Assembly (NCBI RefSeq): GCF_038237375.1
Contig: NZ_CP151273.1
Span: forward strand, 806,001 to 870,000
Source: Alcaligenes sp. SDU_A2
GTDB lineage: Bacteria > Pseudomonadota > Gammaproteobacteria > Burkholderiales > Burkholderiaceae_B
Direction: 5' to 3'
DNA: 64,000 nt
In this document: piece after piece, positions 3,268 through 45,732 of the stretch
Layout of the letters: every line of letters begins with the position of its first letter
Position numbering within the stretch: the stretch's first letter is position 1
Notes under the pieces: model-generated
What the model saw: only the letters and a program-made list of their open reading frames with translations
Told to the model about the DNA's origin: nothing
Database searches by the model: none
Position numbers and translations under genes: made by a program

Positions 3268-3642
3268 ATGCAGCTACCAGAGGACAGAAAATACGTGGCC
3301 ACGCACGAGTGGGCCAAGGCAGAAGGCGATGTGGTGCTGGTGGGCATCACGGATTTTGCTCAGGATCAGTTGGGCGATCTGGTGTTTGTTGGCGATTTCA
3401 CGCCCGGCACGCGTCTGGCCGCCGGTGAAACCGCCGGCGTGGTGGAGTCGGTCAAGGCCGCCTCGGATATTTATGCTCCCGTCGCTGGCGAAGTGGTGGA
3501 GTTCAACGAAGCCTTGTCGGATGCCCCCAACTTAATCAATGACGCGGCCTTTGATACTTGGATTTTCAAGCTCAAGGCGGACAATCCAGCCGACTTGGAC
3601 GCATTGCTCGATGGCCCTGGTTACGAGGCTGTGGCGCAATAA
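3268..3642 (+). CDS. gcvH: Glycine cleavage system H protein
   Basis: Lipoyl carrier of the glycine cleavage complex; shuttles the aminomethyl group from GcvP to GcvT. Length 124 is normal. ESVKAASD holds the lipoylated Lys63, with ETAGVVESVK and YAPVAGEVVEFN forming the two halves of the lipoyl fold; the N-terminus reads YVATHEWAK as in the family. A GAGGG-like ribosome site lies just upstream. Neither gcvT nor gcvP is in the window: the gene is flanked by a BaiN-type flavoprotein and by repeat copy A. It may still serve a glycine cleavage system encoded elsewhere, or act as a lipoyl relay. Confidence 0.95.
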   Translation: MQLPEDRKYVATHEWAKAEGDVVLVGITDFAQDQLGDLVFVGDFTPGTRLAAGETAGVVESVKAASDIYAPVAGEVVEFNEALSDAPNLINDAAFDTWIFKLKADNPADLDALLDGPGYEAVAQ

Positions 3643-3670
3643 CAGTCGGGTTTTGGGCCGCTAAAAAAGG

Positions 3671-4205
3671 GTCTTCGAAGAATTTCGAGCGCCAATTTAC
3701 CCAGTCGATGAGGAACTGGCCTTTTGAAGACGCCATTCAAGGCGCAGCAAGATCGGACAGGGCTGATGGCTTGCCGGCGCTGCGCGCCGGTGCCCTGGTC
3801 GGTGCGCATGGCCGGGCGCGTCGTTAACTCCGGCGGGTTGCTTGTCCACCGGACAAGCAACAAGCGCCGCCGTCAAACAGAACGACGCTTGCACCCCGTC
3901 CCCGCGCGCCGCCTGCGGCAAGCCATCCGACCCGCCCTTTTCGATCTTGCTGCGCCTTGAACGGCTCAAAACACCGATGACATAGTCCCAGCGATACATA
4001 GCCATACCCCAACAGAACATTCAGCGGATGGCTGATACCTGGTACAGCGTACGCGGGTGCCTTGCCGTTTGGGCCAAGCACAGCGGTGCCGTTCTCGCCA
4101 AGCCGACCCCCTGCGGCCTGCCTGGCGAGAACCCGAGGTTCTCTGCGCTTGGCCCAAACGGCCCGCCCACTACGAAGGAGTTCCCGGCATCTCTCGAAGA
4201 ACCAT
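3671..4205. repeat. Structured repeat element, copy A (single module)
   Basis: About 535 bp without a credible gene. Right end ATCTCTCGAAGAACCAT is an inverted match to the left end TCTTCGAAGAATT (imperfect on the left). Inside: 24-bp arms at 3732-3755 and 3942-3965 (one mismatch) enclose 12-bp arms at 3765-3776 and 3916-3927 and a hairpin at 3837-3861 (11-bp stem, 3-base loop). A second nested hairpin has 15-bp arms at 4065-4079 and 4147-4161, with inner 10-bp arms at 4091-4100 and 4123-4132. A longer, diverged copy lies inverted at 23632-24369. Looks like a non-autonomous mobile or RNA-structured repeat; no transposase is present. Confidence 0.85.
3837..3861. repeat. Core hairpin of repeat copy A
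   Basis: Perfect 11-bp inverted repeat GTTGCTTGTCC / GGACAAGCAAC with loop ACC. The matching hairpin of copy B (24175-24199) has GTTACTTGTCC / GGACAAGTAAC, a paired G-C to A-T change that keeps the stem. Confidence 0.9.
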
Positions 4206-4245
4206 AAAAAATGCCAGTCAGTTAATTGCTGACTGGCATTTTTTA
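4206..4245. terminator. Bidirectional rho-independent terminator
   Basis: Stem ATGCCAGTCAG (4211-4221) / CTGACTGGCAT (4229-4239), loop TTAATTG, flanked by A6 on the left and T6 on the right, so it can stop transcription both ways. It sits directly against the right end of repeat copy A, between gcvH and the leftward yggT gene. Confidence 0.9.
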
Positions 4246-4287
4246 TGACGTGGCCTTGTTCGGAACATGAACCACGGTTGTAGCCGT

Positions 4288-4851
4288 TTAAATCGGCACC
4301 AGGCTGAATGCCAGGCGGGTGATGACCATGTTCAGTACTTGGGTCAGAAGCAGAACGACCAACGGCGACAGATCCAGCCCGCCCAGATCTGGAAGGATGC
4401 GGCGGATGGGGGCCAGCAGCGGGTCGGTAATGGTGCGCAGCAAGGGCATGCTGGGCGATTGCGGTTGAATCCAGGACATGAGCGCCTGCAGCAGCACGAC
4501 CCAGAAGATCAGGCTAAGCGACCAGCGCAGCAGGGTGAGCGCAGCGGCCAGTATCAGCATGGGCAGATTGGCCAAGACCGAGAAAGAACCCGACAGCACC
4601 AGGGCGCTAAGCAGCAGGTAGACCAACGCGCTGAGCCAGCCTCCCAGCAGCGATGGCCAGTCCCAGAATTTACCGGCCTTGATCAGGCGGCGCAGTGGCA
4701 TGACCAGCCAGTCGGTGACCTTGAACATGGCCTGCGAATAGGGATTGAAGGGGTGTACCCGCAAGGCGTAGACCCAGGCGCGCAATAGCAAAACCGTACC
4801 CAGGAGCGAGAAGACGATATTGATGAGGAATAGGGCAACGTCACTGAACAT
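4288..4851 (-). CDS. YggT family integral membrane protein
   Basis: About 187 residues with two tandem YggT-type units, each hydrophobic helices plus a motif of the form TDPLLAPIRRILPDLGGLDLSPL (clear in the C-terminal unit; VTDWLVMPLRRLI in the first). Members of this family sit in the inner membrane and have been linked to osmotic or cation stress and cell-division complexes, with no firm biochemical role. Start set at the ATG giving MFSDVALF, since the 22 residues upstream are poorly conserved-looking; a start at 4917 is possible. Lies downstream of the histone-like gene but separated from it by a strong terminator. Confidence 0.85.
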   Translation of the reverse strand: MFSDVALFLINIVFSLLGTVLLLRAWVYALRVHPFNPYSQAMFKVTDWLVMPLRRLIKAGKFWDWPSLLGGWLSALVYLLLSALVLSGSFSVLANLPMLILAAALTLLRWSLSLIFWVVLLQALMSWIQPQSPSMPLLRTITDPLLAPIRRILPDLGGLDLSPLVVLLLTQVLNMVITRLAFSLVPI

Positions 4852-4906
4852 GATGGCCGTATGTGAAAAGAGGAAGAAAGAATTGTCGCATGCGACCGCC
4901 GAAAGC

Positions 4907-4936
4907 CAAAGAGCCACCCGCAGGGGTGGCTCTTTG
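4907..4936 (-). terminator. Rho-independent terminator after the histone-like gene
   Basis: Stem CAAAGAGCCACCC / GGGTGGCTCTTTG (13 bp) with loop GCAG, located just past the stop of the leftward histone-like gene and before yggT. The U tract is short, so efficiency is uncertain. Confidence 0.7.
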
Positions 4937-23122: not shown

Positions 23123-23198
23123 TTGCCCGACCCACGGGCAGAGCAGGGCGGTCTAAACGATGTTTACGTATGCCGGCGGGGGCCGGCTGGAGAACCAC

Positions 23199-23567
23199 AT
23201 GAGCACCCTTACCGAATCCGTTGATCTGCAAGCCCCTCCGTCCCCTCTTATCTTCACCGATGCGGCCGTAGAAAAAGTGCGGGAGCTGCTGATCGAAGAG
23301 GGCAGTCCCGAACTCAAGCTGCGCGTGTTCGTGCAAGGAGGCGGCTGTTCCGGATTCCAGTATGGCTTTACCTTCGATGAGCTGGTCAACGACGATGACA
23401 CCATTATTGACAAAGACGGCGTGCAGCTGTTGGTGGACGCCATGAGCTTTCAGTATCTGGTCGGCGCGGAAATTGATTATAAAGACGACCTGGATGGCGC
23501 GCAGTTCGTCATTCGCAATCCGAATGCCAGCACGACCTGTGGCTGCGGTTCCTCGTTTACGGTATAA
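23199..23567 (+). CDS. erpA: Iron-sulfur cluster insertion protein ErpA
   Basis: A-type carrier delivering Fe-S clusters to apoproteins, including isoprenoid enzymes. 122 residues, with the three cluster-ligating cysteines Cys50 ([15 protein letters not shown]), Cys114 and Cys116 (TTCGCGSSF). Start is the ATG after GGAG; an upstream in-frame ATG at 23160 is rejected because the residues between look unlike the family. Followed by a terminator against which repeat copy B begins. Confidence 0.95.
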
Positions 23568-23599: not shown

Positions 23600-23631
23600 A
23601 AAGCCCTGCTGATACGAGCAGGGCTTTTTTT
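23600..23631 (+). terminator. Rho-independent terminator of erpA
   Basis: AGCCCTGCT / AGCAGGGCT stem (23602-23625) with loop GATACG and a T7 tract. The left inverted repeat of repeat copy B starts at the next base. Confidence 0.9.
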
Positions 23632-23813
23632 ATGGTTCTTCGAGAGATTTCGGGGACTCTTTCGTATTGGGTCGGTCGTTTGGGTCAAACGGACAGACAT
23701 TCGGGTTCTCGCCAGGCCGACCGCAGCGGGCCGGCTTGGCGGGGTCCTTCGCCCGCGCTGCGCGCGGGTTCCCTGGTCAGGATACCGGGGCGGGCGGGGC
23801 GTGAACTCGCAGG

Positions 23814-23838
23814 GTGATTCGTCCACTGGACGAATCAC
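23814..23838. repeat. Core hairpin of the extra module in copy B
   Basis: Perfect 11-bp inverted repeat GTGATTCGTCC / GGACGAATCAC with loop ACT. Shares the GTCC-NNN-GGAC core with the two other hairpins (3837-3861, 24175-24199), while the outer stem has a different but still self-complementary sequence. Confidence 0.9.
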
Positions 23839-24174
23839 AAGCGTCCTGCTCGAACAGCACGCCCCTTGTCTCCCGCCCCAGCATCCCGCCTGCGGCGCAG
23901 GCCCTGACTCGCCCGCCGGCCCGCTGCGGTCGGCTTGGCGAGAACGGCACCGCTTGTGTTTGGCCCAAACGGCGGGATGTCCGTGTATGCGGCATAAGGC
24001 GTCAGCCATACGCTCAATGTTCTGTTGGGTATAGCTATGTGTGGCCGGGCCTATGTGGCTGGTGTTTTGAGCCGTTCAAGGCGCAGCATGCTCGGACGGG
24101 GCGGGTCGGATGGCTTGCCGCAGGCGGGGCGTGGGGACGGGGTGCAAGCGTCGTTCTGTTTGACGGCGGCGTTT

Positions 24175-24199
24175 GTTACTTGTCCGGCGGACAAGTAAC
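24175..24199. repeat. Core hairpin of the main module in copy B
   Basis: GTTACTTGTCC / GGACAAGTAAC with loop GGC; one base pair differs from copy A on both arms together. Confidence 0.9.
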
Positions 24200-24383
24200 C
24201 CGCCGGAGTTAACGACGCGCCCGGCGCTGCGCCCCGACCAGGGTACCGGCGCGCAGCGCCGGCAAGCTATTAGCCCTGTCCGAGCATGCTGCGCCTTGAA
24301 TGGCGTCTTCAAAAAACCAGTTCCTCATTGACTTGGTAAATTGGCTCTCGGAATTCTTCGAAGAACCATTTTTATGATCTCCT

Positions 24384-24469
24384 AGCATCAGCATCAGCAT
24401 CAGCATCAGCATCAGCATCAGCATCAGCATCAGCATCAGCATCAGCATCAGCATCAGCATCAGCATCAG
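24384..24469. repeat. Hexanucleotide microsatellite (AGCATC)n
   Basis: 86 bp of uninterrupted AGCATC, just over 14 units, beginning 14 bases after the end of repeat copy B. No gene is plausibly read through it; a leftward frame would give a Leu-Met repeat that looks like an artefact. Unit length divisible by three, so slippage would not shift a frame; if functional it would be through spacing. Confidence 0.95.
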
Positions 24470-45219: not shown

Positions 45220-45732
45220 GACATAGCGTCCGGTTAGGGACGGTGTGCGGCATTTATGGTGGCATTGAAAGCGGGGCGATGAAGCCGATACCGGTTTGTG
45301 GGTCGAGTCCTGTGTCTAGCTATCAGTCATTTAGCCTGGTTTGGTATGTATGTTTTGTTAATGGCTTTGCCAAAAAAGTTAGAGGATTTTTTGTTTTTTT
45401 TGGCGTATTTGCATAATGACTGGAGAAAAATGATAAACGTATTGTCAGACGCCTGATTTTTATTCAATAAAAATATCAGCTGCCTATTTGTTTGAAATTT
45501 AAGTCGTATGATTATTTATTTTAAATAGATGTTTTTTCTGATTTTCCGGAGTCTGTTTTATTTGCTGATTATCATGCGGATTCTGGATTGCGTCGTTTAT
45601 CTACTTTCGCGACAATCGTCCGCAGACGCCCAGACGCCCAGACGCCCAGACGCCCAGACGCCCAGACGCCCAGATCATCCGTTTTGTTGCCCAGCGGAGC
45701 GTGCGTCTGTGGCTTTGTGCTCGGGCAGGTGT
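45220..45732. other. AT-rich intergenic stretch with an octamer repeat
   Basis: About 510 bp between the convergent LysE and arsB genes. CTGATTTTTATT / AATAAAAATATCAG near 45453-45479 is a weak AT-rich hairpin that may end the LysE transcript. 45340-45560 is strongly AT-rich, unlike both neighbours. No credible gene. Confidence 0.55.
45623..45675. repeat. Octanucleotide tandem repeat (CAGACGCC)n
   Basis: 53 bp: six full CAGACGCC units plus CAGAT, 58 bp beyond the arsB stop. The 8-bp unit would shift a reading frame on slippage. A rightward frame from ATG 45529 (hydrophobic start MFFLIFRSLFYLLIIM, then DAQTPRRP repeats) crosses it but has no ribosome site. Confidence 0.93.

Follow-up and report, generated by a model that had tools for sequence, protein, structure and literature searches.

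The window, by which we mean the whole 64-kb stretch of DNA analysed here, carries two copies of a structured repeat (Table 1). Copy A lies where a glycine cleavage H protein gene and a YGGT family gene converge, and copy B has an iron-sulphur cluster biosynthesis gene directed at it. The ends given in Table 1 replace those of an earlier, sequence-only reading of this DNA. That reading described a terminal repeat, ATGGTTCTTCGA, whose inverted ends are real but whose AT is part of an 8-bp target duplication. As it also stated, no transposase gene is recognised inside either copy, and no promoter-like site was found in window positions 3500-4400. The genes flanking copy A are far apart in 8/8 same-genus genomes that match both of them, so that no empty site could be read. 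Adjoining copy B is a perfect hexanucleotide array, (AGCATC)14 (24384-24469), which is likely to be slippage-variable, and the window also holds a perfect 8-bp tandem repeat, CAGACGCC, in 6.5 copies (45623-45674).

Table 1. Features of copies A and B in the 64-kb window. F is the strand of the covariance model.
Feature	Position	Strand	Remarks
Copy A	3669..4203	+	shell family F1, short form, single core
Copy B	23634..24367	-	F1 shell, full form, two cores
Core of copy A	3759..3940	model strand F on +	covariance model 187.9 bits, E 2.2e-35
Right half of copy A, reduced and lacking the second core	4064..4173	-	weak match (12.6 bits, E 0.6 only); fold of copy A
First core of copy B	23737..23917	F on +	178.2 bits
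Second core of copy B	24096..24277	F on -	174.8 bits; (+,-) pair with 23737..23917
Left target duplication of copy A, CTAAAAAA	3661..3668	.	7/8 identical to right side
Right target duplication of copy A, ATAAAAAA	4204..4211	.	is the terminator T-tract on the opposite strand
Target duplication of copy B, ATAAAAAA read on -	23626..23633	.	7/8 match
Target duplication of copy B, ATAAAAAT read on -	24368..24375	.	7/8 match to ATAAAAAA
Intrinsic terminator hairpin adjoining copy A duplication	4212..4239	.	T-tracts on both strands
Intrinsic terminator hairpin beside copy B	23600..23625	+	
Glycine cleavage H protein gene (GCV_H), directed at copy A	3268..3642	+	PF01597
YGGT family gene, directed at copy A	4288..4917	-	PF02325
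Iron-sulphur cluster biosynthesis gene, directed at copy B	23160..23567	+	PF01521

Both copies fold better than their shuffled sequences, with z -9.5 for copy A (0/100 shuffles equally good) and z -14.4 for copy B (0/20). The paired arms singled out by the sequence-only reading are present, the outer stem as AAGATCG/CGATCTT in A and ATGCTCG/CGAGCAT in B, and the core hairpin as GTTGCTTGTCC/GGACAAGCAAC in A and GTTACTTGTCC/GGACAAGTAAC in B. The nested inverted repeats that it described are found in both copies as well, but B has two inverted cores where A has one and a reduced right part. What had been taken for a family of two copies comprises 82 core matches in the source genome (covariance model, E 0.001), which are spread over three or more shell families and include some with no recognised shell. 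Shell and conserved core are thus distinct entities, one nested in the other.

The core is a multi-helix hairpin of ~181 nt with conserved internal loops and variable stems. Read from the outside inward on the strand opposite to that of the model (the wobble-tolerant R strand, see below), it begins with an outer arm of up to ~30 bp and a mostly perfect stem of ~15-24 bp, followed by an internal loop built around GCAAG. A stem of 8 bp, the loop CTGTTTGAG, a stem of 5 bp and a bulge resembling GACGCTTG then lead to an apical hairpin often ending GTCC NNN GGAC; after GAGTT the stems return, and GGGAAG is followed by a side hairpin. The covariance model (181 positions, 50 pairs) was built on an alignment of 44 cores from the source genome and its genus, chosen from 92 cores found by BLAST, in which 34/50 predicted pairs show double changes. 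Across 90 cores, double changes occur at 38/50 pairs and 93.2% of cells are paired; the covariation score is 0.486 vs 0.156 for shuffled alignments (0/500) and at most 0.105 with slid partners, which bears out the earlier claim that pairing is maintained through changes of the letters themselves. The same core plan recurs in other genera with wholly different stems. At gathering score, Rfam 15 recognised one tRNA in the window and nothing in the element, and five loci searched at E up to 5 gave 12 matches, all below gathering scores; RT-15 (E 0.11), mir-1269 (E 0.025) and the others were taken as chance. Searches of open-licence papers outside bioRxiv gave no listing or passage that describes the element.

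The shell of copies A and B is a non-autonomous transposon-like element. Its family, F1, has short inverted GGYTCTTCGA ends (GGYTCTTCG termini) and occupies A/T-tract sites with an 8-bp A/T duplication; 33 F1 loci, whole or fragmentary, were fetched from the 3.65-Mb genome, the other seven of the 40 fetched being F2. In the 24 F1 copies with both ends (a tally that includes L045, whose right end is misplaced), the duplication matches at 8/8 positions in five, 7/8 in eight and at most 6/8 in 11, and such A/T-rich duplications are weak evidence singly. F1 and F2 are both located at terminators. A terminator hairpin adjoins 18 of the 30 F1 copies tested (all but L027, L037 and L040) vs 52/3000 random points of the window, and inspection by eye of the six F2 copies with both ends shows each flanked by two similar terminator hairpins that look like a duplication. 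F2 measures ~835 bp between its ends CTGCTGACAAACCC, both of which were matched in six copies. Five of these are 834-835 bp long; in the sixth (822 bp) the pattern probably fell on a shifted site, and the seventh F2 copy yielded no length. A third shell, F3, has three copies (L275-L277), two of them with recognisable GGTTCTT ends. Cores are present in F1, F2 and F3, usually two per shell in opposite orientation. At L020, L041 and one side of L025 and of L029, F1 or F2 occupies an intergenic region that contains plain cores in the genomes of either of two Alcaligenes species, G005 or G008. One F1 copy, L024 (G000:C1:2961035-2962743), lies beside what reads by eye as a type I-E CRISPR repeat, GGTTCATCCCCGCTTACGCGGGGAACAC.

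What moves the shell may be guessed from its ends; the mover itself was not found. ISL3 elements of related genomes start GGCTCTTC or GGCTCTAC, and two of them (L200 and L216) are surrounded by exact 8-bp duplications, GGTGCAGA and AAAATCAA, while two others (L199 and L203) showed none. The F1 terminal repeats share their first 8 nt, GGYTCTTC, with some ISL3 ends and differ in the remainder. The earlier view that no named family fits holds for the core, which has no Rfam fit; in the shell, the first 8 nt of the ends and the 8-bp duplication resemble those of ISL3-family elements. No ISL3 transposase was found in the source genome (E 1e-10; search of 61 family genomes), and a candidate resident ISL3 helper was rejected because the weak match sits in a 408-aa ORF read as a desaturase from its sequence. 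Y1 (RAYT/IS200) transposases were likewise found in 0/10 same-genus genomes, source genome included (E 1e-6), which led us to discard RAYT or IS200 as the mover. Nor did an autonomous version emerge between the distant cores of L095, where a 1.6-kb spacer has no recognised transposase and its ORFs read by eye as an integrase fragment and a nuclease-like protein. A plasmid or phage origin found no match in plasmid and phage searches, and viral contigs gave no match for one strict pattern.

The family-wide search with the covariance model that the sequence-only reading had proposed places the core in 65/200 family genomes and 22/43 genera, source genome included (E 1e-4, strict filters, number of matches in each genome capped), and leaves 135/200 without a match. 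In an order-wide sample of 200, some family members included, the source genome was the sole one to match (E 1e-5). Copy number is 29 in each of G005 and G008, 55 in G041 and 21 in G026, some of the matches in the latter two being partial. With a strict pattern, 43 stretches were retrieved from named genomes, whose titles read Alcaligenes, Paralcaligenes, Allopusillimonas, Candidimonas or Alcaligenaceae bacterium, all names that belong to Alcaligenaceae; the core has so far been found in one bacterial family only, Alcaligenaceae by the named matches. The element is dispensable, given that no match was found in these 135 family genomes or in G003, one of the 10 same-genus genomes. The 15 copies read from G041 are very similar, and contigs of that genome end within core fragments. 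The G041 cores (L089 and the even numbers of L116-L142) lie amid what reads by eye as small REP-like palindromes, each with GTAG at its foot (GTAGCGSCASCCCTTGTGGSTGSC), and no Y1 transposase is listed for that genome. In G006:C1, core loci at 3023218, 3068468 and 3113718 are exactly 45,250 bp apart, so that either a stretch of 45 kb is duplicated in tandem or the assembly is at fault.

One alternative is that the core is simply part of a selfish, MITE-like DNA transposon and that an enzyme acting in trans uses its fold to transpose it. Such a reading draws on the 8-bp duplications of F1 and its landing at terminators (18/30 vs 52/3000), on the similar terminator hairpins flanking six F2 copies by eye, on the very similar G041 copies (15 read) and contigs that end in core fragments, and on the related ISL3 ends with the exact duplications of L200 and L216 (none in L199 or L203). 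Against it stands the behaviour of the core in G005 and G008, two species compared in order to reduce the effect of shared ancestry. Their 24 and 23 loci, respectively, include 21 that are orthologous one to one with equal core orientation; at one locus a pair in G008 corresponds to a single core in G005. Core divergence is 247/4698 = 0.053 with 8 gap sites, as compared with 468/3383 = 0.138 and 257 gap sites in adjacent sequence 31-100 bp off the core and 2176/19670 = 0.111 in flanks more than 400 bp away. When 330 bp around the cores were searched for GGTTCTTCG or GGCTCTTCG ends, exact matches turned up at 0 of the 47 G005/G008 loci and matches with one mismatch at 12, and the source genome, as described above, lacks ISL3 and Y1 transposases at E 1e-10 and E 1e-6. 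We therefore consider it unlikely that the core is merely a component of a selfish transposon.

Several further observations bear on the age and constraint of the core. Two source-genome cores without a recognised shell, L279 and L283, are orthologous in place to G005/G008 on both flanks, indicating that some loci predate the split from these species. In the 26 orthologous core pairs, loops (75/1425 = 0.053) and stems (0.058) diverge alike, so that the whole core is slow rather than its loops alone; in two of five sets, drawn from three orthologue groups, loops are faster than stems (0.082 and 0.094 vs 0.041 and 0.057). At a locus beside a gene read as uppP, compared across five species, hairpin windows show 0.03-0.07 differences per site, intergenic windows beside or between the hairpins 0.17-0.46 and coding flanks 0.07-0.15, and one species (L075) has lost most of the first hairpin.

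The gene setting was assessed in G005 and G008, where coding strands of the flanks were called by third-position substitution between the two species. Both flanks could be called at 12 of the 21 orthologous loci, which divide into 11 convergent and one tandem, and 29/33 called neighbours are directed at the element. Omitting four flanks with rival or opposed calls (left of L219, L231 and L258; right of L226) leaves 8/9 loci convergent and 25/29 neighbours directed at the element. A crude longest-ORF scan of 40 loci in the source genome found no excess of convergent neighbours. Where cores are paired, the arrangement is (+,-) in 11/11 pairs of G005 and G008, representing 6 distinct loci, and in 25/26 pairs of the source genome, many of which are related copies. 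Significance testing of these tallies counted orthologous pairs as independent and retained the ambiguous flanks, and the Fisher test likewise took sites to be independent. The single same-orientation pair of the 26, L022 (G000:C1:3208387-3208922), looks as if one core had been inverted.

Stem changes in the 26 orthologous core pairs reveal a pronounced strand bias. They comprise 49 double changes from one Watson-Crick pair to another, set against a chance expectation of ~4 doubles of any kind, 33 single changes that exchange a Watson-Crick pair with A.C on F (G.U on R), 5 that do so with G.U on F, and 14 others. When the five most diverged pairs are removed (21/26 retained, at most 12 differences each), 19 doubles, 24 R-strand wobbles, 3 F-strand wobbles and 8 others are left, and a set of 58 cores has 86 cells of R-strand wobble vs 10 of F-strand wobble. 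The bias holds at both partner states (20:5 for G-C and 13:0 for A-T), such that a C-to-T bias alone is insufficient to explain it. The better fold is on the R strand in 79/90, 23/26 and 53/58 cores, three sets that overlap in part. A molecule made from the R strand would show such a bias. Because divergence is low and the wobble bias is 33:5, selection probably acts on the fold of one single strand, and that strand is likely to be RNA.

The same bias weighs on the suggestion, made in the sequence-only reading, that structure might be kept either as RNA or as a DNA cruciform. Structure is indeed kept; a cruciform is less likely than one-strand folding, given that most single changes create wobble pairs on the same strand. 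More broadly, a DNA-level structure (a cruciform, or a site where converging genes meet that binds gyrase or a nucleoid protein) would suit the convergent setting, the inverted pairs, the very long perfect stems and the tolerance of inverted orientation, but a cruciform uses both strands equally while the observed bias favours one, although single-stranded DNA could show it, and we regard this alternative as improbable.

Two observations point to events within the palindromes themselves. Five species were compared by eye at a locus between genes read as secF and map: two of them carry the core in the opposite orientation to the remaining three, and two have the outer part turned round with respect to a third; inversions of this kind are described as a footprint of template switching (PMC8794818). 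Two of the 26 orthologous core pairs, L226/L239 and L232/L245, show 28 and 39 differences; many of their stem pairs have changed jointly, suggesting that copies were converted by one another instead of changing step by step. Together, the secF-map inversion and the joint exchanges indicate that palindrome-driven change or conversion probably operates beside selection. Least probable, and already weakened, is the idea that pairing is maintained by mutation instead of selection: template switching, raised in the sequence-only reading, or conversion in palindromes would produce the inverted core, a footprint named for the former (PMC8794818), and the multi-base compensated changes of L226/L239 and L232/L245, but offers no evident reason for the 33:5 strand preference and would not by itself lower loop divergence (0.053 vs 0.138 in adjacent sequence).

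The computed properties of the core are its fold, covariation, strand bias, low orthologue divergence, inverted pairs and 3' location in two species. What they may mean is, in our judgement, evenly poised between acceptance and doubt: the core would be a structured single-stranded intergenic element, probably an RNA of the R strand, resembling REP/BIME at 3' ends. It would be transcribed from the R strand as part of read-through transcripts and, whether alone or paired in inverted orientation, mostly where genes converge in the two species compared, would fold in the 3' part of the transcript into a large stem, whose conserved internal loops might be recognised by a protein. By analogy with REP/BIME, its likeliest job would be to end or protect 3' ends and to separate converging transcription. 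In the source genome, cores additionally travel within the non-autonomous transposon-like shells F1, F2 and F3. Points against this reading are the lack of a promoter-like site in window positions 3500-4400, the dispensability of the element and the hairpin largely lost at the uppP locus, loops that are no slower than stems, the crude source-genome scan with its lack of convergent excess, the joint stem exchanges in two core pairs, and the core inversion at an orthologous locus, which is odd for a transcript of fixed direction. Somewhat doubtful, though possible, is a new multi-copy structured RNA class, held in place by selection at most loci, arranged in inverted pairs between convergent genes, recognised through its conserved internal loops by a partner and repeatedly captured by different transposon shells; the copy numbers behind this proposal are 82, 29 and 29 in the three fully counted Alcaligenes genomes. 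If the RNA interpretation is right, a large structured element is absent from the RNA catalogue searched, and its many conserved copies make its role testable locus by locus. One-strand wobble also provides a means to separate selection from palindrome-repairing mutation, and the shells present structured elements carried within transposons that land at terminators.

Comparison with known systems places the two parts of the element differently. The core resembles a structured RNA family in its covariation above shuffled and slid controls and in wobble that falls mostly on one strand, yet the element reached no Rfam 15 model at gathering score, either in the window or at the five loci searched. 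MITEs of the ISL3 family have an 8-bp duplication and no gene. F1 is like them in its GGYTCTTC ends, 8-bp duplication and lack of a gene, as is F3 by its ends, but the similarity of the shell is confined to ~8 nt of its ends and the source genome has no helper. IS1202-type targeting creates a long target duplication of ~25 bp, and the surroundings of F2, likened to it on duplication alone, appear to contain a similarly long one. As described in PMC3110155, BRE is a beta-proteobacterial repeat of ~90 bp that often stands in tandem, varies in number and occurs in Comamonadaceae too; in Alcaligenaceae it is dispersed and usually intergenic, with small RNAs detected in one region; our element, compared with BRE by that description only, is likewise a dispersed and mostly intergenic Alcaligenaceae repeat. 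The closest parallel is with REP/BIME of the GTAG and CGTC families, portrayed in PMC3733652 as dispersed intergenic palindromes, mostly between convergent or unidirectional genes and often dimers, with stems of 5-13 bp bearing a GTAG or CGTC tag, transposase genes associated with the GTAG class, and stems whose GT pairs and alternative paired residues were read as hinting that they function as RNA. Alcaligenes faecalis appears in a table of predicted REP candidates (PMC12306157). The core is also intergenic, often paired and at 3' ends (29/33 neighbours; 25/29 unambiguous). It differs in being a multi-helix structure of ~181 nt with conserved internal loops and outer arms of up to ~30 bp as opposed to a palindrome of 20-40 bp, in showing no GTAG or CGTC tag in its conserved columns, and in belonging to a genus in which 0/10 genomes have a RAYT (Y1) transposase (E 1e-6). 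Judged on this analogy, the element would fit a REP-like repeat at converging 3' ends, much larger and more elaborate than REPs themselves.
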